Positions 209 to 11,028 of a stretch of 64,000 nt of DNA are shown one piece after another. Source of the stretch: Fulvivirga marina (lineage in GTDB: Bacteria; Bacteroidota; Bacteroidia; Cytophagales; Cyclobacteriaceae); the NCBI RefSeq assembly GCF_016775155.1, contig NZ_JAEUGD010000053.1, forward strand, positions 186,001 to 250,000, given 5' to 3'. Within the stretch, counting starts at the first letter, position 1, and each line of letters opens with the position of its first letter. The notes beneath the pieces were generated by a model that was not told where the DNA came from, made no database searches, and was given only the letters and a program-made list of their open reading frames with translations. The translations under genes and the position numbers were made by a program.

Positions 209-1186
209 ATGGCTGCGGCAGATCAAATAAAAAGTTTAATTAAATCATTTGGAGATGGTGATGAAGACCGCTTTTTTGCTTCTGCTATGCAAATTGCTGC
301 TTCTGAAGCACGAAAAGGTCATACAACATTTGCTCAGGAATTGAAGTCACTGATTGAAAAGGCGCGAAAAAATCGTTCTCTTTCTTTTCTTGATCGAAGC
401 AAGACAATTCCAATCAATCAATCAAAACGAGATCTTCATGAATTGATTGAAATCTTTCAGCCGAAAATCAAGCTAAAGGATATGGTTCTTGCTTCATCAG
501 TAAAAGAAGCTTTGTTGAAATTGGTTAATGAGCAGCAGAAATTGGAGATACTTCGGCAACATAATCTTATGCCAAGAAGGAAACTTTTACTGCAAGGTCC
601 TCCTGGGTGTGGAAAAACAATGACTGCACAAGCAATTGCAGGAGAATTGGGGATTCCTGTTTTTATTGTTCGGTTGGATGGTTTAATTTCCAAATTTATG
701 GGTGAATCAATTGCGAAGTTACGATTGATATTTGATGCAATGCCTGATCATAGAGGTGTATATTTGTTTGATGAATTTGATTCAATTGGTTCGCATAGAA
801 ACCAGGGACAAGATGTTGGCGAAATTAAACGTGTCTTAAATAGCTTCTTGATTAACATTGAAAAAGATCAAAGTAATAGCATCATTATTGCTGCCACAAA
901 TATGGTGGAGGCTTTGGATCAGGCTTTATTCAGAAGATTTGATGATATCATTAACTATCCCTTACCAAGCAAAAGTGAAATCATTGACACCATAAAGAAG
1001 AATCTTTTCGGATTCAAATTTGATGAGCGAATTAATTACCAAGTGCTAGCTAAAGAAGCGGAGGGTCTGAATTATTCTGATATTGTTAGAGCCTGTGAGG
1101 AAACTATTAAGGAGATGATTCTTCAAGGAGATAATAAGCTTAAAAAATCAGAATTAGTTTATGCCATTAAAAAACGTAATTCATAA
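209..1186 (+). CDS. ietA: AAA+ ATPase, IetA-like subunit of an IetAS defence system
   Basis: 325-residue AAA+ ATPase. The Walker A motif GPPGCGKT begins at residue 130, the Walker B motif YLFDEFDSIG has D188/E189, and an arginine-finger-like ALFRRFDD segment follows, so a single complete AAA module is present with a helical N-terminal region of about 90 residues. The stop codon overlaps the start of the subtilase gene (TAATG), which indicates translational coupling. An AAA ATPase paired with a large S8 protease is the known composition of IetAS, first described as a plasmid stability/incompatibility locus in Agrobacterium and later shown to give phage resistance. The assignment to IetA rests on this pairing and domain content; ATPase activity is safe, defence function is inferred. 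Confidence 0.8.
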   Translation: MAAADQIKSLIKSFGDGDEDRFFASAMQIAASEARKGHTTFAQELKSLIEKARKNRSLSFLDRSKTIPINQSKRDLHELIEIFQPKIKLKDMVLASSVKEALLKLVNEQQKLEILRQHNLMPRRKLLLQGPPGCGKTMTAQAIAGELGIPVFIVRLDGLISKFMGESIAKLRLIFDAMPDHRGVYLFDEFDSIGSHRNQGQDVGEIKRVLNSFLINIEKDQSNSIIIAATNMVEALDQALFRRFDDIINYPLPSKSEIIDTIKKNLFGFKFDERINYQVLAKEAEGLNYSDIVRACEETIKEMILQGDNKLKKSELVYAIKKRNS

Positions 1187-3729
1187 TGGCAGATAATTTC
1201 GATAAGCCTCACATAGGGAGAATCGAAGAATATGCTTCCGGTCAACAATATAAGTATCCTACTAAAATACAAGTAGATTTCCCGATTAGTCAGCGTAATC
1301 GTGCAGAACATGGGAATAGAATACTAAGAAGGCTTCAAGCGGTGCGTCGGCGTTTACAATTAGTCAAGCATACCGAACTTCCGGGAAATATTATTCGAGA
1401 TGATGCGATTTATGTGACTTTTATCTCAGAATGGGGTTATCCATTGAAATTTGACCAGCTACATCAAAATACAGATCGACCGTCTTATCAAATAATTAAT
1501 ATTAAACAGGAAGAACATCCTGATCAGGAGAATCAATATCGCTATAGTGTTGCTCTAATGTTAACAAAGGGGGGTGTCAGTCATTTTATCAAGAAAGCTG
1601 AACAGTACTTGACTGAAAACACTAAAGACCGTGAGGGGAATATAACCGACACTCCAAAATCTAATCCTCTTATTGCAAACATTGCAAATATCAAATTAGC
1701 AACACTTGAAGCTTTTTGGTCTGATGATCCTGAGATCCCTTTTCCTAATGAAAGTGAAATAGTCTGGTGGGAAGTTTGGTTTAGGAAGACTAATAATGAC
1801 AATGAAAGAATTACTAAAGTTGTAAACAATCTCGAGCAGCTAGATGCACTGATTGGTCGGTCGCAATTAGATTTTCCTGAACATTTTGTGCGATTGGTAA
1901 AGGCTTCTGCTAGTCAGCTTTCAGAATCTTTGATGCTGCTTGATAACCTTGCCGAGTTACGACATCCTCAGGAATTATCTGATTTTATTACTCAAGATGG
2001 TGTTTTAATTTTGGATAAAGAACAATGGTTAAGAGATCTTTCAGGAAGAACGGAAAATCGTTTCAATGAAAACTCTGTTCTTGTTTGTTTACTGGATAGT
2101 GGGGTAACTAACCAACATACTCTGATTAACCCATCATTACCTGATGAAAGGTTATATACATGGATAGAAGATTGGGGGAAGTATGATAGTGAACGGGGTG
2201 GTGGACATGGTACTGGAATGGCTGGTCTGGCACTATATGGAGATTTAACTCAGGTTTTCGCGAATAGTGACATTATTCAACTATACCATGGGCTTGAATC
2301 TTTTAAGATTTATAATCCGCAATCTCCTAATGACCCAGAAATATATGGTGCAATCTATGAATATGCCTGTGTTACTCCAATAGTAGACAGACCAAACCAC
2401 TCCAGAGTTTTTTGCTTGTCAGTAACTAATAAGGATTTCGGATTCAAAGGTAGGCCTTCATCAAGTTCTGCTTCTATTGATAAGATTGCATTTGGGAATA
2501 TTCTTAACCCCAAAGAGCCACAGTTAATCTTAGTAAGTGGGGGTAACGTGAAAATTGAAAACTCAGAAGAATTTCCAAATAAGAACTTTTATGAGTCTGT
2601 GCAGGATCCGGCGCAAGCATACAACGCTCTAACTGTTGGAAGTTATACACGTAAAGACCGAATTGATACCCAAAAATGGCCCGGATGGAACCCTTTGGCA
2701 GTTAATGGTGAAATGGCGCCTTCCAATTCAACTTCTGGAACTTGGGAGACACAGTGGCCAAATAAGCCAGACATTGTGATGGAGGGAGGGAATTTGGCAT
2801 ATAAGGAAAATGAAGTTGATTATAACGATACACTTCAATTATTAACTACACATAAGGATCACCGAATAAATATCTTTCAAACATTTGGAGATACAAGTGC
2901 ATCAGTTGCCCTAGCATCAAAAATGGCTGCCGAATTAAAAACCGAATATCCTGATTATTGGCCGGAAACAATTAGAGGATTAATGGTTCATTCTGCAACG
3001 TGGACAGATGCTATGTTACAAAATTATAATTTGAATCTGGAAACAGATAGAAGAGCTCTTTTGAGGTCTGTGGGTTATGGTGTTCCTATATTGGAACGTG
3101 CTAAGAATAGTGCAAATAACTCGCTTACTCTTGTCTCACAGCGTTCCATTCAACCTTATAGGTTAGAAAAATCCCAGCCACGATACAATGAATATCATTT
3201 GTATGAACTCCCTTGGCCAGTAGATGTTCTGAGAGACGAAATTGGAGATAGTGATGTGACAATAAAAGTCACTTTATCTTACTATATAGAACCTAATCCA
3301 GGTAATCGTCAATATGCTTCTAATTTCCGGTATCATTCTCATGAACTGGACTTTAGACTTATTAAACCTTTAGAGTCACTTAATGAATTTAAAAGGAGAA
3401 TATCGGCTGCATCTTCTGGGACAGATGAAAATGATGATGATACAGTTGATACATCTTCAGAATTATGGACTTTGAGGGAGCGTATAAGGAGTAAAGGGTC
3501 AATAAAAAAGGACTTCATAACAACTTCCGGAGTGGAATTGTCAAGAAGAAACATTTTGGCAGTTTATCCTAAAAATGGCTGGTATAGGACAAGGAAACAA
3601 CTAGGAAGAGTAGCCTCGATAGTTCGGTATAGTCTTATTATCACAATAGAAACCTCCGAACTGGAAGTTGACCTCTATTCACCGGTATTTAATATGGTTC
3701 AAGCAGTTGTGCCAATTGGTTCAGTGTGA
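1186..3729 (+). CDS. ietS: Subtilisin-like S8 serine protease, IetS-like subunit
   Basis: 847-residue protein with a complete S8 catalytic triad: Asp in CLLDSGV (residue 304), His in GGGHGTGMAG (residue 341) and Ser in GDTSASVA (residue 571). About 290 residues precede the protease domain and about 250 follow it. There is no signal peptide, so it should act in the cytoplasm, unlike the secreted subtilase at 59.2-60.7 kb. The start ATG shares its A with the stop of the ATPase gene, so the two proteins are probably made in fixed ratio and work together, the ATPase controlling protease activity or substrate choice. The substrate is unknown. IetAS assignment is by gene pair and architecture. Confidence 0.82.
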   Translation: MADNFDKPHIGRIEEYASGQQYKYPTKIQVDFPISQRNRAEHGNRILRRLQAVRRRLQLVKHTELPGNIIRDDAIYVTFISEWGYPLKFDQLHQNTDRPSYQIINIKQEEHPDQENQYRYSVALMLTKGGVSHFIKKAEQYLTENTKDREGNITDTPKSNPLIANIANIKLATLEAFWSDDPEIPFPNESEIVWWEVWFRKTNNDNERITKVVNNLEQLDALIGRSQLDFPEHFVRLVKASASQLSESLMLLDNLAELRHPQELSDFITQDGVLILDKEQWLRDLSGRTENRFNENSVLVCLLDSGVTNQHTLINPSLPDERLYTWIEDWGKYDSERGGGHGTGMAGLALYGDLTQVFANSDIIQLYHGLESFKIYNPQSPNDPEIYGAIYEYACVTPIVDRPNHSRVFCLSVTNKDFGFKGRPSSSSASIDKIAFGNILNPKEPQLILVSGGNVKIENSEEFPNKNFYESVQDPAQAYNALTVGSYTRKDRIDTQKWPGWNPLAVNGEMAPSNSTSGTWETQWPNKPDIVMEGGNLAYKENEVDYNDTLQLLTTHKDHRINIFQTFGDTSASVALASKMAAELKTEYPDYWPETIRGLMVHSATWTDAMLQNYNLNLETDRRALLRSVGYGVPILERAKNSANNSLTLVSQRSIQPYRLEKSQPRYNEYHLYELPWPVDVLRDEIGDSDVTIKVTLSYYIEPNPGNRQYASNFRYHSHELDFRLIKPLESLNEFKRRISAASSGTDENDDDTVDTSSELWTLRERIRSKGSIKKDFITTSGVELSRRNILAVYPKNGWYRTRKQLGRVASIVRYSLIITIETSELEVDLYSPVFNMVQAVVPIGSV

Positions 3730-3844
3730 TAATAATTGCTGTATATTTATATAATTTGTGATCCTTAGTTTTCGATTTGAGCAGATTCCAGTTGGTGCGA
3801 CGGTTTCTCCAGTTAGATAGTTATTATACTCATCAAAATTGTCA

Positions 3845-3868
3845 GGAGCTGCCAAATCCGACAGCTCC
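3845..3868 (-). terminator. Hairpin after the unit-1 small ORF
   Basis: A 7-bp perfect stem (GGAGCTG/CAGCTCC) with a 10-base loop lies 10 bases past the stop of the small ORF, followed on the minus strand by a short T-rich stretch (CAATTTTG). It may end the transcript, but the T-tract is weak. The equivalent hairpin of unit 2 is at 4648-4671 and has one mismatch. Confidence 0.45.
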
Positions 3869-3877
3869 AAACTAAAC

Positions 3878-4141
3878 TTAATTCTTTACCAACCCCTCAA
3901 GCCCTTCCCATAAAATCTTAAGATTGAAAAGAGCCAATTTTTCAGTGGTATCAAGGGGCAAGTCTGTATGATACAAGGCAAAGTCATGCACCATTTTTAG
4001 AGAATCGATTAGTTCCTCTATTCCCATGAATTTGATGTTAGCCATGAATTCAACTTCTGATGAATTCAGAGGCTTGAAATCTACTGGATGATTGGCAGGA
4101 TTTTCATTAAAATAAACTGATTGACCATTTGAGTGTAGCAT
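3878..4141 (-). CDS. Small conserved protein of unknown function, unit 1
   Basis: 87-residue ORF starting at the ATG at 4141-4139 (MLHSNG...). From the VDFKPLN segment on it is identical to the unit-2 copy over nearly 70 residues, ending EGLEGLVKN. That core is acidic and predicted mainly helical, with no signal peptide or membrane segment. The start was chosen because it is the one conserved between copies; an upstream in-frame ATG at 4168 would add nine residues that are not shared. Codons 1-4 coincide with the third copy of the variable RNA tag (4128-4140), so the start can be sequestered by pairing with the leader. No family is recognised. The preserved core argues that it is expressed. 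Confidence 0.6.
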   Translation of the reverse strand: MLHSNGQSVYFNENPANHPVDFKPLNSSEVEFMANIKFMGIEELIDSLKMVHDFALYHTDLPLDTTEKLALFNLKILWEGLEGLVKN

Positions 4142-4165
4142 AATAAAATGGGTTAATAAATTGAA

Positions 4166-4309
4166 CAAAAAGAGGGCAGGTCACTGCTACACTCATCAAA
4201 GCGGTGCTTCGATAGGTCTCGGGACTTCCACCCGCATGCCTGCCCAGGATCTTTGGTTTAAACCGAATTTGTGGTATTTGCACCATGTTATAATTTGATG
4301 AATGTAGCA
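4166..4309 (-). ncRNA. Structured leader RNA or small RNA with pseudoknot, unit 1
   Basis: On the minus strand the 5' segment at 4309-4294 pairs with 4200-4185 over 16 positions, with one U-G wobble. A second helix, GGGCAGG (4245-4239) with CCTGCCC (4180-4174), interleaves with the first, giving a pseudoknot topology. A small CGGG/CCCG hairpin lies inside. The second strand of the long helix can alternatively pair over 10 bases with 4131-4140, which covers the start codon of the small ORF. A short T-run (4171-4167) follows. The wobble pair only makes sense for a minus-strand transcript. Homologous helices in unit 2 have different sequence but equal pairing, which is strong evidence for a real RNA fold. 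Confidence 0.7.
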
Positions 4310-4312
4310 CTA

Positions 4313-4320
4313 CAAATATA
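4313..4320 (-). promoter_or_regulatory. Promoter -7 element for the unit-1 RNA
   Basis: TATATTTG on the minus strand matches the Bacteroidota -7 consensus TAnnTTTG exactly and lies 3 bases upstream of the first helix strand of the RNA, so the transcript would begin at or near the 5' end of that helix. No clear TTG is seen at the -33 position. The sequence around it (CAGCTTTTAATTCA) is conserved in unit 2. Confidence 0.55.
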
Positions 4321-4517
4321 CGGAAGTGAATTAAAAGCTGTATGCTTTTTTATGCTTGCGAGTCTTTGCGGTATGGTTCCCTGGATCGAGGGGATTCCTG
4401 ATATTTTCAATCAAAGCAGTAATAAGGTGTTCTTTAGTTTAAGAAAATTCAGGAATGACGAGGTTGGGGCAGGCCGGATGGTGATGTTTTAGAAACTACT
4501 CACCGGAGAACACCCGA

Positions 4518-4566
4518 CGTCATTCCAAAATTTTCGCAGAGCGGCGGAGAAAATATTTGGAATCCC
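4518..4566. repeat. Palindromic intergenic repeat, copy 1
   Basis: An imperfect inverted repeat: CATTCCAAAATTTTC and GAAAATATTTGGAATC flank a GCAGAGCGGCGGA centre. The same arrangement recurs at 5321-5370 and 9965-10013 and in diverged form at 6107-6146. It behaves like a REP/MITE-type non-coding repeat; no associated transposase is seen in this window. Confidence 0.7.
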
Positions 4567-4647
4567 CAATTTAGGAGAGCTGGCTATAGCATGACTGGTG
4601 CGGAGGCTTCTCCAGTTACATGGGCATAATGCTCATCAAAATTGTCA

Positions 4648-4671
4648 GGAGTTGCCAATCCCGACAGCTCC
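4648..4671 (-). terminator. Hairpin after the unit-2 small ORF
   Basis: Counterpart of the 3845-3868 hairpin, beginning 12 bases past the stop of the unit-2 ORF. The stem is GGAGCTG/CAACTCC with one mismatch. The flanking CAATTTTGATGAG is the same in both units. A role as terminator or 3' stabiliser is inferred from position only. Confidence 0.35.
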
Positions 4672-4682
4672 ATCCCAAAATT

Positions 4683-4949
4683 TTAATCCTTCACCAATCC
4701 CTCAAGCCCTTCCCATAAAATCTTAAGGTTAAAAAGAGCCAATTTTTCAGTGGTATCAAGGGGTAAGTCTGTATGATACAGAGCAAAGTCATGAACCATT
4801 TTTAAAGAATCGATTAATTCTTCTATTCCCATGAATTTGATGTTAGCCATGAATTCAACTTCTGATGAATTCAGAGGCTTGAAGTCTACCGGATGATTGC
4901 TTGAGTTTTCGCCTCTAAAATAGGCTGTCGGACCATTTGAAGTTCGCAT
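4683..4949 (-). CDS. Small conserved protein of unknown function, unit 2
   Basis: 88-residue ORF from the ATG at 4949-4947 (MRTSNG...), paralogue of the unit-1 protein. The long C-terminal core is identical, while the segment after the start codon differs (RTSNGPTAYFRGE against LHSNGQSVYFNEN). The difference in codons 2-4 is dictated by the RNA tag (AGTTCGC instead of GTGTAGC on the plus strand), so the protein tip varies in step with the leader RNA. An in-frame ATG at 5036 would extend the ORF through the structured RNA and is not shared by the other copy, so the shorter start is preferred. Confidence 0.6.
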   Translation of the reverse strand: MRTSNGPTAYFRGENSSNHPVDFKPLNSSEVEFMANIKFMGIEELIDSLKMVHDFALYHTDLPLDTTEKLALFNLKILWEGLEGLVKD

Positions 4950-4968
4950 AATATAATGGTTTGAGTGA

Positions 4969-5114
4969 ATAAAAAGAGGAGAGGTCACTGCGAACTTCAT
5001 CAAAGCGGTGCTTTGAATAGGTCTCGGGACTTCCACCCGTATGCCTCTCCAGGATTTTTGGTTTAAACCGAATTTGTGGGGTTAGCACCATGTTATAATT
5101 TGATAAAGTTCGCG
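4969..5114 (-). ncRNA. Structured leader RNA or small RNA with pseudoknot, unit 2
   Basis: Same architecture as the unit-1 RNA with different helix sequences. The 5' strand 5114-5099 pairs with 5004-4989 (15 of 16 positions including one U-G wobble). The interleaved second helix is GGAGAGG (5050-5044) with CCTCTCC (4984-4978), where unit 1 has GGGCAGG/CCTGCCC. The tag over the ORF start (4936-4948) complements 4989-4998 perfectly over 10 bases. Loop and linker sequences, such as GGTGGAAGTCCCGAGACC, are conserved between units. A T-run at 4975-4971 follows the second helix. Confidence 0.7.
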
Positions 5115-5117
5115 CTG

Positions 5118-5125
5118 TAAATATA
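5118..5125 (-). promoter_or_regulatory. Promoter -7 element for the unit-2 RNA
   Basis: TATATTTA on the minus strand, one mismatch from the TAnnTTTG consensus, at the same distance from the RNA 5' helix as in unit 1. The G-to-A change at the last position may make it weaker than the unit-1 promoter. Confidence 0.45.
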
Positions 5126-5320
5126 CGGAAATGAATTAAAAGCTGTATGCTTTTTATGCTTGCGAGTCTTTGCGGTATGGTGCCCCGGATCGAGGAGATT
5201 CCTGATATTTTCAATCAATGTGGTAATGAAATCACTTTTGGCAAAGAAAATTCAGGAATGACGAGGTTGGGTCAGGTCTGAGGTGCTGTTTTAGAAAACT
5301 GCTTACCAGAGAATAACCCA

Positions 5321-5370
5321 CGTCATTCCAAAATTTTCGCAGAGTAGCGGAGAAAATATTTGGAATCCCC
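5321..5370. repeat. Palindromic intergenic repeat, copy 2
   Basis: Near-identical to 4518-4566 (CGTCATTCC ... GGAATCCCC with inner AAATTTTC/GAAAATATTT arms and a GCAGAGTAGCGGA centre). It is part of the unit-2 duplication. An associated flank, GATTCCTGATATTTTCAATC to AATTCAGGAATGACGAGG, lies just before it at about 5198-5267 and at the same place in unit 1. Confidence 0.7.
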
Positions 5371-5508
5371 TGCTTAAGAGCACCTAATAGAGCTGGTTCC
5401 CCTTGTCCACGTATTTGGTACATCGATAACAGGAAGTTTCTTTCTTCAAAATTGCGTGGCATTAAGACATTTTCGAACTAATTTCTAAAATAATCAGTAT
5501 CTTAGAAT

Positions 5509-5742
5509 ATGGTGACAGATAAACATAGGGATAAATTAATTGAGAAGATCAAGTCAATTGATGACAGAAATATAATTGACGAAATTTATAGACTTCTTAA
5601 GGTTGATTTTGATGATACCATTTACGAAACCAATAATGAACAAAAGGCTCGAATAGCTAAAGGTGTTCAGCAAATTGAAAATGGAGAAAGCGTTAGATCA
5701 GAAGACGTTTTCAAAAAAATGCGTAAATGGCAAAACAAGTAA
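5509..5742 (+). CDS. Antitoxin of a ParDE-like type II toxin-antitoxin pair
   Basis: 77-residue acidic, helical protein that precedes and overlaps (16 bases) a RelE/ParE-type toxin gene. The C-terminal half (GVQQIENGESVRSEDVFKKMRKW) resembles the toxin-binding tail of antitoxins in this superfamily, where a GES.. segment followed by a basic helix is common. No clear ribbon-helix-helix motif is visible at the N-terminus, so DNA binding is not certain. The role as antitoxin is inferred from size, order and overlap. Confidence 0.75.
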   Translation: MVTDKHRDKLIEKIKSIDDRNIIDEIYRLLKVDFDDTIYETNNEQKARIAKGVQQIENGESVRSEDVFKKMRKWQNK

Positions 5743-6020
5743 TCTGGTCATCTCAAGCCGAACAAGAATTTGCTAATATTTTAGAGTACTGGACTAACAA
5801 GAATAGATCAACAACATTTAGTAATAAGTTAATTGATTTATTTGAGGAGGCCACTGAGTTAATTTCCATTTATCCAGAAATTGGACAATTGACAGATATA
5901 GAGAATGTGCGACATAAACTAGTACGTGATTATTTAATATTTTATCGTATTGACAGTGACGCTATCAATATATTGACAGTTTGGAACCCGAGACAAAACC
6001 CAAATAAATTAAAGCTTTAG
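5727..6020 (+). CDS. RelE/ParE superfamily toxin
   Basis: 97 residues, the usual length for the family. It shows the family landmarks: N-terminal VIWSSQAEQEF helix, YWTNKN, the IYPEIGQL segment, VRHKLVRDYLIFYRI strand pair and the C-terminal ILTVWNPRQNP strand, in which RQNP is typical of ParE-like proteins. Members either poison DNA gyrase (ParE) or cut mRNA on the ribosome (RelE); the sequence alone does not decide which. The start overlaps the antitoxin gene by 16 bases, so the pair is one operon. Confidence 0.85.
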   Translation: MAKQVIWSSQAEQEFANILEYWTNKNRSTTFSNKLIDLFEEATELISIYPEIGQLTDIENVRHKLVRDYLIFYRIDSDAINILTVWNPRQNPNKLKL

Positions 6021-6325
6021 TGGGGATGCCCGTTCATTAATCTGGTAATTGCTGGTAAAGCGCCCCGGATCAAGAAACTTCCTGACTACTTACTCAGGAA
6101 GAGGCGCGTCATTCCAGAACGCAATGTAGCAGAGATCTGGAATCCCTAATTTCAGATCGTTGCATTATTCCCCAAGTTCAAGGGTAGGGAGCGGTCCTTA
6201 TACCACTCGGGAATACCTCCATCATAATTGAAACTCTCTTATTTAGGGTAGCTGTGGTAGTGCAGGTGCTATGGCTATGGTCTGTCCTTTCAAAATTAAT
6301 GTTGAATCTATTTCTGAAATTATTA
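6021..6325. other. Intergenic stretch with a diverged palindromic repeat
   Basis: No gene is supported. 6107-6146 is a diverged member of the local palindromic repeat family (CGTCATTCCAGA ... TCTGGAATCCC), preceded by CTTCCTGA/TCAGGAAG arms at 6078-6101. The remainder is unstructured as far as I can see. Confidence 0.55.
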
Positions 6326-9932: not shown

Positions 9933-9964
9933 TCTTTTGGTGAGAGTTAACCTGAAAATAACTA

Positions 9965-10013
9965 CGTCATTCCGGAATTTTCGCAGAGCAACGGAGAAAA
10001 TATTCGGAACCCC
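9965..10013. repeat. Palindromic intergenic repeat, copy 3
   Basis: CGTCATTCCGGAATTTTCGCAGAGCAACGGAGAAAATATTCGG followed by AACCCCC, i.e. the same element as at 4518-4566 and 5321-5370, here with matched changes in the arms (TTCCGGAA against the TTCGGAA side). It lies 32 bases after the nucleotidase stop. Confidence 0.7.
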
Positions 10014-10233
10014 CAACTTAAGAGTACTACCTAAACGGATGATTATATGATATATACCTGCGTACTAATTCTCCCTTGAGGGAGATGCCGCAGGCAGAGG
10101 GTGTTTCTATCTGTAATTGTGAGATTCGTGATACTTTCTTTAAATACAGCAATGAAACCACTTTTGATTAAGGAAATTCAGGAATGGTACATTGATTGGT
10201 TTGTCTCTTAGTCAATTTAAATGTTGGCATTAA
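10014..10233. other. Intergenic stretch with repeat remnants
   Basis: Contains TCTCCCTTGAGGGAGATGCCGCAGGCAGAGGG (10070-10101), a CTCCC/GGGAG hairpin of a kind common between Bacteroidota genes. At about 10124-10195 there is another degenerate copy of the GATTC.TGATA ... AAATTCAGGAATG flank. No gene is supported. Confidence 0.45.
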
Positions 10234-11028
10234 TTATTCCCGAACTTTCTCTTCCAGGTAATTCGCCATTCCAGTAGCTAAAAATTCTATTAAGGGCATA
10301 TCCGATTTACTAGTTTCGCATTCTACAATTCGACTGATATATTCAAACCTATCCTCGTCTGAGGTTATTTTAACAAAAATAGGTGGACAATCATTTTTCA
10401 TTAAAATTGTTCCCATGATAATTCTGCAAACCCTACCGTTTCCGTCAGCAAAAGGATGTATTTCATTAAGAAATTTATTATGAAAATATACCAGGGCAGT
10501 AATTAAATGACTGTCATCTTTAGAATTATCAATAGCTTCAAATTTTGTTCTGAATATTTCTAGATATGAAGCCATCACAATATCCAAATTGTAATGAGGA
10601 ACATATTCTTTATTAGGGAAAAATGGTTCTCTGTAGCCAATAGTTGGTACGTTACGAAAATTACCGACCAAATGCGGTTTAAAATCCACTTCCCATGACA
10701 ATTCACTATTCATTAGATCTCTATGGATTGCCTTAATTGAATCTTCCGTCAATTCAAATTCTTCATACCTGTTGATAACGGACAATAAAACTTCTTTATG
10801 GTTGGATACATCTAATAAACTCTTCATTTTTCCCTTCTTGACCAATTGGTCATTCAAGAATTTTATAGTATCACCGTATTGTAATTTTTCATCTTCTATT
10901 CTGGCAGAATAAAATGAATAATCATTAACAAGATTGTTTTTGAAATCATCAGACCAATCAGGTCTTGGAAATTTATCTTGAAATAATTTTAGGGCTGAGT
11001 TAAACCGTTTGAGACATTCGGAGAGCAT
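10234..11028 (-). CDS. Fic-family protein (probable AMP transferase)
   Basis: 264 residues. The Fic active-site motif HPFADGNGR with catalytic His is complete, and a downstream hydrophobic helix follows. Near the N-terminus the segment YSARIEDEKL fits the inhibitory helix (S/T)xxxE, as in class II Fic proteins, so autoinhibition within the same chain is expected. Fic proteins transfer AMP (or rarely other groups) to hydroxyl side chains of target proteins, often gyrase/topoisomerase or chaperones. A 70-residue partner gene ends 5 bases upstream on the same strand. The target is unknown. Confidence 0.88.
   Translation of the reverse strand: MLSECLKRFNSALKLFQDKFPRPDWSDDFKNNLVNDYSFYSARIEDEKLQYGDTIKFLNDQLVKKGKMKSLLDVSNHKEVLLSVINRYEEFELTEDSIKAIHRDLMNSELSWEVDFKPHLVGNFRNVPTIGYREPFFPNKEYVPHYNLDIVMASYLEIFRTKFEAIDNSKDDSHLITALVYFHNKFLNEIHPFADGNGRVCRIIMGTILMKNDCPPIFVKITSDEDRFEYISRIVECETSKSDMPLIEFLATGMANYLEEKVRE

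Follow-up and report, generated by a model that had tools for sequence, protein, structure and literature searches.

A candidate c4-like antisense repressor RNA with a pseudoknotted fold in mobile units of Bacteroidota

Introduction

The closest described counterpart of the elements reported here is the c4 RNA of phages P1 and P7. A table in PMC2864571 lists c4 for Proteobacteria and phages, and PMC5320573 reports c4 relatives in multiple copies on Acinetobacter chromosomes and states, citing Citron and Schuster (1990), that cross-reaction between the P1 and P7 RNAs is lost through a deviation of only 4 nucleotides (nt). The abstract of PMC12390103 confines the type I toxin–antitoxin systems identified to date to Proteobacteria, Firmicutes and Tenericutes. 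In the present work we analysed a 64,000-nt stretch of the Fulvivirga marina genome (Bacteroidota; contig NZ_JAEUGD010000053.1, positions 186,001–250,000; hereafter the window), in which two tandem units each place a structured leader RNA ahead of a small open reading frame (ORF), named ORF2. A segment in the middle of this RNA is complementary to two places, the front end of the RNA itself and the beginning of the small downstream gene and, judged from these complementarities, the RNA can probably silence that gene. We read the RNA, with a probability of roughly 0.6, as a c4-like antisense translation repressor carried by mobile units of Bacteroidota.

Results

The two units occupy positions 4308-3878 (unit 1) and 5113-4683 (unit 2) on the minus strand; all coordinates of the units are given in the direction of their transcription, unit 1 first. 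Each consists of a TAnnTTTG-type promoter element, a leader of ~170 nt and ORF2, with a terminator-like hairpin seen by eye 3′ of ORF2. TAnnTTTG is the consensus of the −7 element of Bacteroidota promoters, and the boxes, identified by sequence and consensus match (TATATTTG at 4320-4313 and TATATTTA at 5125-5118), end 4 nt before a segment named a1, the 5′ end of the predicted transcript. A first-pass annotation made from the sequence alone had proposed that the RNA is driven by its own minus-strand promoter, and at the sequence level this was borne out: the gap between box and a1 was exactly 4 nt in 75 of the 79 elements collected in the survey described below, the others having a gap of 5 nt (L060 and L076; loci are cited by L numbers) or no box (L080 and the second copy of L043).

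Along the transcript the order is a1 (4308-4296; 5113-5101), which forms the 5′ strand of helix P1a; b1 (4286-4280, AUGGUGC; 5091-5085), the partner of the P5 loop; the 5′ side of P2; the 5′ strand of the pseudoknot helix, PK (4245-4239; 5050-5044); hairpin P4 (4234-4220, CGGG-UGGAAGU-CCCG; 5039-5025); the closing side of P2; hairpin P5 (4211-4197; 5015-5001), whose loop is named b′ (4207-4203; 5011-5007); the antisense segment a′ (4198-4186; 5002-4990), which complements both a1 and a2; the motif RGUGAC; and the 3′ strand of PK (4180-4174; 4984-4978). PK, P4, P5, a′ and a2 are supported by covariation, b1 and P5 with its loop by a test of cognate pairing. RGUGAC and GGC-AUAC-GGGUGNAAGUCCC make up a conserved core between the arms. 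Behind the 3′ strand of PK lie a T-rich run (6.67 T per 9 nt, compared with 3.34 slightly farther downstream) and a hairpin presenting the ORF2 start codon together with a2 (4139-4130; 4947-4938), which in unit 1 is the G of the start codon plus the next 9 nt. This third copy of the variable word, on which the functional reading turns, had been overlooked in the first reading of the sequence, as had the constant spacing between promoter box and a1; that reading proposed no function. ORF2 itself encodes 87 amino acids in unit 1 (4141-3878) and 88 in unit 2 (4949-4683), and neither product belongs to a known family.

Relatives were collected at several depths. The window's own genome held nine DNA matches and six protein matches to the unit, and ORF2 relatives occurred in 4 of the 58 genomes searched, the own genome included. 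An alignment of 14 ORF2 proteins led to 81 confirmed GTDB loci, of which 80 were kept, in Fulvivirga, Reichenbachiella, Dyadobacter, Aquimarina, Roseivirga, Allomuricauda and others. When these 80 loci were scanned by pattern together with the window and with 26 further loci of the own or related genomes, 107 raw RNA matches resulted, 79 of them distinct; the 28 that were dropped were taken as the same places seen twice, since no pair with the same core differed in comparable flanks. Eleven of the 80 GTDB loci lacked the element by pattern, and one of these, L045, visibly bears a variant. A covariance model built from 42 ORF2-unit sequences only (R1) found five full RNAs in the own genome (the sixth row had an expect value, E, of 1.2) and matched 9/395 genomes drawn from the class and 4/395 drawn from the phylum, the own genome counted in both; the genomes drawn sample some of the phylum, and weak matches are lost to the strict filtering applied above 40 genomes. 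The weak R1 match L112 (E 1.2, own genome) reads like a piece of a group II intron and was taken as chance. Two blastn searches of a phage collection gave no named phage with the RNA. In a pattern scan of viral contigs, 12 of 16 stretches proved on inspection to contain the element (L125–L128, L130, L132–L135 and L139–L141, the last by eye), and L131, L136, L137 and L138 did not.

Two interleaved helices, with partners that change to match each other between the units, had been proposed initially, and both were present to within about one base of where they had been placed. The first joins a1 to a′ (P1a) and was paired at all 13 bases examined in each unit; the second, PK, crosses it, and the fold is thus a pseudoknot. 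Covariation was scored in an alignment of 46 sequences (A8), thinned to 90% similarity, made with MAFFT and not fitted to any structure. Over six helices (P1a, PK, P2, P4, P5 and the start-codon hairpin), 90.7% of the cells were paired and the covariation score was 0.291, compared with 0.143 for shuffled alignments (0/500 reached the observed value) and at most 0.114 when the partners were slid. Taken singly, P1a was 92.9% paired with double changes at 8/11 pairs, PK 99.4% with 6/7, P4 98.9% with 1/4, P5 80.1% with 4/5, P2 79.0% with 3/5 and the start-codon hairpin 85.7% with 4/5. A smaller alignment (A4) of 42 sequences, without L076, L082, L084 and L095, some of which pair poorly, gave 90.9% and a score of 0.305, with a′:a2 paired at 97.9%. 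In 13 elements that precede genes other than ORF2, 93.6% of the cells were paired and the score was 0.548 against 0.159 for shuffles, and here P4 also changed on both sides. The proposal of a conserved pseudoknotted RNA has therefore held up: covariance models could be built, homologues were found in other genomes and the covariation was strong. At the gathering threshold the window matched nothing in Rfam 15, as the first-pass annotation had expected, and at relaxed thresholds nothing overlapped the elements except a chance-level SNORA24 line (E 9).

Two known RNA classes were considered and rejected. A group II intron, suggested by the GGUGNAAGUCC hairpin, gave no Rfam match. A ribozyme of the hepatitis delta virus type has a similar order of helices, but by eye the elements have no counterpart of the small P1.1 helix and the joining strand is long.

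We then consider the variable word itself. In A8, a′:a2 was 96.7% paired over 10 pairs, 8 of which were doubly changed, and b1:b′ was 76.1% paired with double changes at all five pairs; jointly the two interactions scored 0.555, compared with 0.200 for shuffles and at most 0.163 for slid partners. Across the 79 elements, the mean length of uninterrupted pairing between a′ and the 5′ region of the same copy was 11.4 nt, against 7.6 for copies bearing other words; for the downstream region it was 10.1 nt against 7.0. For b1:b′, measured in 48 elements, the cognate value was 6.62 and the permuted value 5.19 (standard deviation 0.15, 200 permutations). Duplex energies over 50 distinct elements averaged −14.8 kcal/mol for a1:a′ and −14.5 kcal/mol for a2:a′, a1 being the stronger partner in 27/50, and at position 9 the pair was U-G in a1 for 25/50 elements and C-G in a2 for 32/50. 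These near-equal energies, together with the U-G and C-G usage at position 9, suggest that two competing partners are held in balance. At least 8/9 positions of a1 were paired in 77/77 elements with a placed 5′ end, and of a2 in 76/77, where, as in the energy comparison, a2 had been located by its pairing with a′; such placement favours pairing, and A8 is thus the fairer test. By eye, the Dyadobacter types L061, L065, L070, L074, L078 and L105 show a match of ~17–20 nt between antisense and start region and a b2-like second target. In two further Dyadobacter loci (L084:3754-3932 and L095:3840-4018) the core is intact and the two a2 words are alike, as if the start of the payload had been exchanged.

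The same RNA stands ahead of other genes. R1 found distant copies before genes other than ORF2 in the class draw (L117–L120) and the phylum draw (L129), and each non-ORF2 copy, save L154 and L177, bears its own a1, a′ and a2 words. A second model, R2, was built from 13 of the 16 non-ORF2 elements, omitting L126, L129 and L165, the 5′ ends of which had been misplaced by MAFFT; it recovered the two units of the window (E 5e-11 and 2e-8) as well as L126, and at E 0.01 it had a match in 11/395 class genomes. The gene behind the RNA encodes a phage regulator of the AntA family in L139 (Pfam E 1.1e-21) and of the Rha family in L120 (E 4.7e-25), both far over the Pfam cut-off, and partners below the cut-off were ORF6N (L117), BRO (L132) and a RadC-like protein (L119). 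A SymE gene (PF08845) followed the RNA in three genomes: L129 (E 3.4e-11), L165 (over the cut-off) and L178 (E 8.2e-7, just over the cut-off; its a1, a′ and a2 were read by eye). The a′:a2 complementarity of the SymE-type copies was 15 and 18 nt in the two measured by script. The remaining partners inspected were small proteins without a useful match. SymE as a general partner was considered and rejected, as only 1 of the 13 SymE matches obtained from 198 genomes had an element with a promoter-like box; L158 showed a short triple lacking a promoter, which was taken as chance. The contig of the AntA-linked element also carries, at L139:5798-5879 on the minus strand, a near-threshold match to the Rfam RT-17 RNA (38.5 bits, cut-off 40.4).

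The 79 units carry 17 different a′ words and lie in 38 genomes, giving 75 within-genome pairs. The two members shared the a′ 9-mer in 3/75 pairs against 9.71 expected (P 0.004), in a permutation that keeps Dyadobacter separate from the rest and takes no account of orthology or shared ancestry, a shortcoming that must be held against it. Orthology is unlikely to explain the shortage, because when units of the same type from different genomes were compared, the flanks could not be aligned in 41 of the 46 cases (nine short-flank loci, L011, L012, L013, L015, L016, L017, L019, L020 and L025, were left out of these); flanks were partly alignable in L039/L097, L037/L042, L050/L069, L061/L105 and L065/L070. 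Units of one type are thus mobile, sitting in different genomic neighbourhoods. Among 278 unit pairs with ORF2 bodies >80% identical, 219 differed in a′, and RNAs 92–93% identical precede ORF2 bodies only 63–64% identical (L034/L047 and L015/L040). By these comparisons RNA type and protein body are shuffled among units. Upstream ends of the form GTTAT..GC, resembling integron attC ends, were noticed in L031, L032, L036, L045 and L047.

Of the ORF2 protein, 44 aligned sequences share nine invariant residues, namely Met1 and eight in the C-terminal half. Residues 2–4 change with the RNA type because a2 lies there. An AlphaFold2 model had a mean predicted local distance difference test score of 79, with a low-confidence N-terminus followed by three helices. 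Family searches gave no Pfam or PADLOC match, and the best NCBIfam line was Csn2 (E 0.027, below the cut-off); the best PHROGs line (E 0.0066) was of unknown function; Foldseek gave nothing better than E 1.0, and the best PDB line was a Mediator subunit (E 1.1). In the viral contigs scanned, 12 pattern matches to ORF2 were obtained, of which 0 were confirmed. In L023 an ORF2-like coding sequence without the RNA lies directly 3′ of what appears by eye to be a helix–turn–helix gene of the XRE type, the same protein domain seemingly being under another kind of control.

In the window, unit 1 adjoins an AAA ATPase and subtilase pair (209-3729, plus strand) that matches the IetA/IetS defence models (PADLOC E 2e-73 and 2e-37). 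On the other side, at 5509-6020 (plus strand), a small ORF and a ParE_toxin protein (PF05016, E 6e-11) form a toxin–antitoxin-like pair, and a Fic-like protein at 10234-11028 (minus strand) matches the SoFic/PDC-S04 defence models. With these three the region looks defence-rich. Dispersed repeats (ACGTCATTCC...GGAATCCCC and GGATTCCTGATA...) lie between and beyond the units, at 4432-4577, 5235-5380, 9964-10033 and 6054-6154.

Discussion

The arrangement suggests the following mechanism. A single promoter would start the RNA at or near a1, and the RNA would fold into the pseudoknotted core (P1a, PK, P4 and P5) and then continue into ORF2; because a T-rich run follows the core, the core may end there or be processed and released as a small RNA. 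The segment a′ would have two alternative partners: a1, at the 5′ end of the same RNA, and a2, the stretch of 10 nt whose first base is the G of the ORF2 start codon. By occupying a2, either within one molecule or, once released, in trans, a′ would keep the downstream gene from being translated, the outcome being repression and not activation. The pairs a′:a1 and b′:b1 would restrain the antisense strand in the young RNA and so time the onset of repression. ORF2 would presumably be a product worth silencing, either toxin-like or switch-like.

Several observations weigh against this reading. The pairing data are explained just as well by a switch that acts only in cis. The searches given above matched ORF2 to none of the toxin or antirepressor families. 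A second target b2, behind a2, is not general (cognate 5.06, permuted 4.98), being long only in L061/L074-type units (9 nt in L061 and L074). In L084 and L095, a2 mismatches a′ beyond position 6, and a1 or a2 is absent from the second copy of L043, from L154 and from L177, the last two having the core without a clear a2. The SymE-type elements score weakly, both with R1 (E 3.9e-4 for L129) and with R2 (E 0.024 for L129, 0.074 for L165 and 0.0033 for L178), and the weak R2 scores make the kinship of these copies less sure; moreover, 12 of the 13 SymE matches in the 198 genomes lacked a convincing element. R1 and R2 are not independent in discovery, since the members of R2 came via R1 or its P4 motif. 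Finally, the full 24-nt b′ plus a′ was shared in 0/75 within-genome pairs against 2.76 expected, at a P value of only 0.045.

Among other explanations, a type I toxin–antitoxin system proper fares best, though we regard it as rather doubtful. ORF2 would then be a toxin, the leader RNA its antitoxin, and the unit would be kept because cells that lose it die. The antisense repression proposed above could be put to this use, among others, and our confidence in the two overlaps. The occurrence of the same kind of RNA ahead of SymE-family genes in three genomes speaks for it, as does the position of the window units next to the IetA/IetS-like pair and the ParE-like gene, but ORF2 reaches the cut-off of no Pfam or NCBIfam family, PHROGs and PADLOC gave nothing useful, and partners of the antirepressor type are not toxins. 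If functional, the SymE pairing would extend the range of type I toxin–antitoxin systems to Bacteroidota.

An unlikely explanation is a purely cis two-state leader, that is, a riboswitch or protein-sensing attenuator in which a ligand or the ORF2 protein sets whether a′ pairs with a1, leaving the start codon free, or with a2, hiding it, and in which the words change by ordinary drift of stems. The near-equal energies of the two partners agree with such a switch, and the highly conserved core between the arms is what would be expected of an aptamer or protein site. However, AntA, Rha, SymE and ORF2 share no evident common pathway, and a module preceding all of them suits repression better than one ligand; drift, for its part, leaves unexplained both the shortage of equal words within genomes and the exchange of specificities between near-identical ORF2 bodies.

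It is very improbable that the conservation is that of a real coding sequence (ORF1; 4286-4107 and 5091-4915): the frame was open in the 15 copies first read, where it looked convincing, and invariant KIL, H, G and SP residues run through 14 aligned copies, but over all 79 elements, in which the longest ATG frame passes the ORF2 start in 58 but spread across all three frames, stops earlier in 18 and has no ATG in 3, ORF1 failed as a conserved gene, and the base pairs covary and the structure is also present in the distant copies ahead of other genes.

Returning to antisense repression, we tentatively extend it to a system of RNA immunity types, in which discrete specificities would circulate in Bacteroidota independently of their payload and a resident RNA would act in trans to silence any newcomer of its own type. 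A genome would hold at most one unit of each full type because of this silencing, in keeping with the 0/75 pairs that share b′ plus a′ (three share a′ alone), whereas newcomers of a different type would be expressed as soon as they enter. If true, self/non-self recognition would reside in ~9–20 nt of RNA and would serve phages and toxins as well as a new protein family. Exclusion of like types, if real, would be a compact natural case of RNA-coded incompatibility and would offer many orthogonal, evolution-tested repressor pairs for the genetics of Bacteroidota.

In the searches made of the open PMC literature we recognised no description of the RNA, although the supplementary lists of PMC8040213 could contain the motif unnamed. 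Compared with translational riboswitches and attenuators, the elements likewise contain a strand for which two partners compete, the start codon lying within one of them; they differ in matching no Rfam family at the gathering threshold and in the unrelated genes that they precede. The likeness to SymE/SymR lies in the SymE-family genes behind this kind of RNA in three genomes. In Escherichia coli the antitoxin SymR is made from the strand opposite its toxin gene, whereas here the antisense RNA would be the leader of the same transcript, and ORF2 is not a SymE.

The likeness to the c4 RNA of P1 and P7 (RF01695, with the a1/b1 partner RF03163) goes further. In both, the RNA lies on the same strand as the controlled gene and is served by the same promoter, a predicted one in our elements, and the order is a1, b1, a core with b′ then a′, a2 and the gene: the P1 record gives a1, b1 (both annotated as putative), c4, a2, b2, icd and ant1 in one direction, and the b′/a′ order in c4 was read from the P1 sequence. 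In both, a short word sets the specificity, the a1 and b1 targets lie upstream (the complementarity is present here, on what would be one transcript), the a2 target lies at the translation start of the downstream gene, L084 and L095 excepted, and antirepressor-family genes are among the partners (AntA and Rha here, icd-ant in P1). By model, RF01695 and RF03163 matched neither the window nor 18 fetched loci at a relaxed threshold, although both matched the P1 region used as a positive control (68.8 bits for C4), and neither R1 nor R2 matched the P1 region. By fold, c4 is nested, with three stems and with a′ and b′ in loops, as described in PMC5320573, and the present elements are pseudoknotted, a′ forming part of the outer helix at its base; a1 starts at the predicted first nucleotide, a2 covers the start codon and b2 is generally absent. 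The initial suggestion of an undescribed system stands in so far as no Rfam family covers the RNA, but its logic is known, the order a1-b1-[b′-a′]-a2 being that of c4. On the evidence of organization and pairing, the elements would work like c4, yet they fail membership by model and by fold. They point to c4-like control built on another fold in Bacteroidota, where it is associated with phage switches, with SymE toxins and with a protein family not yet characterized.

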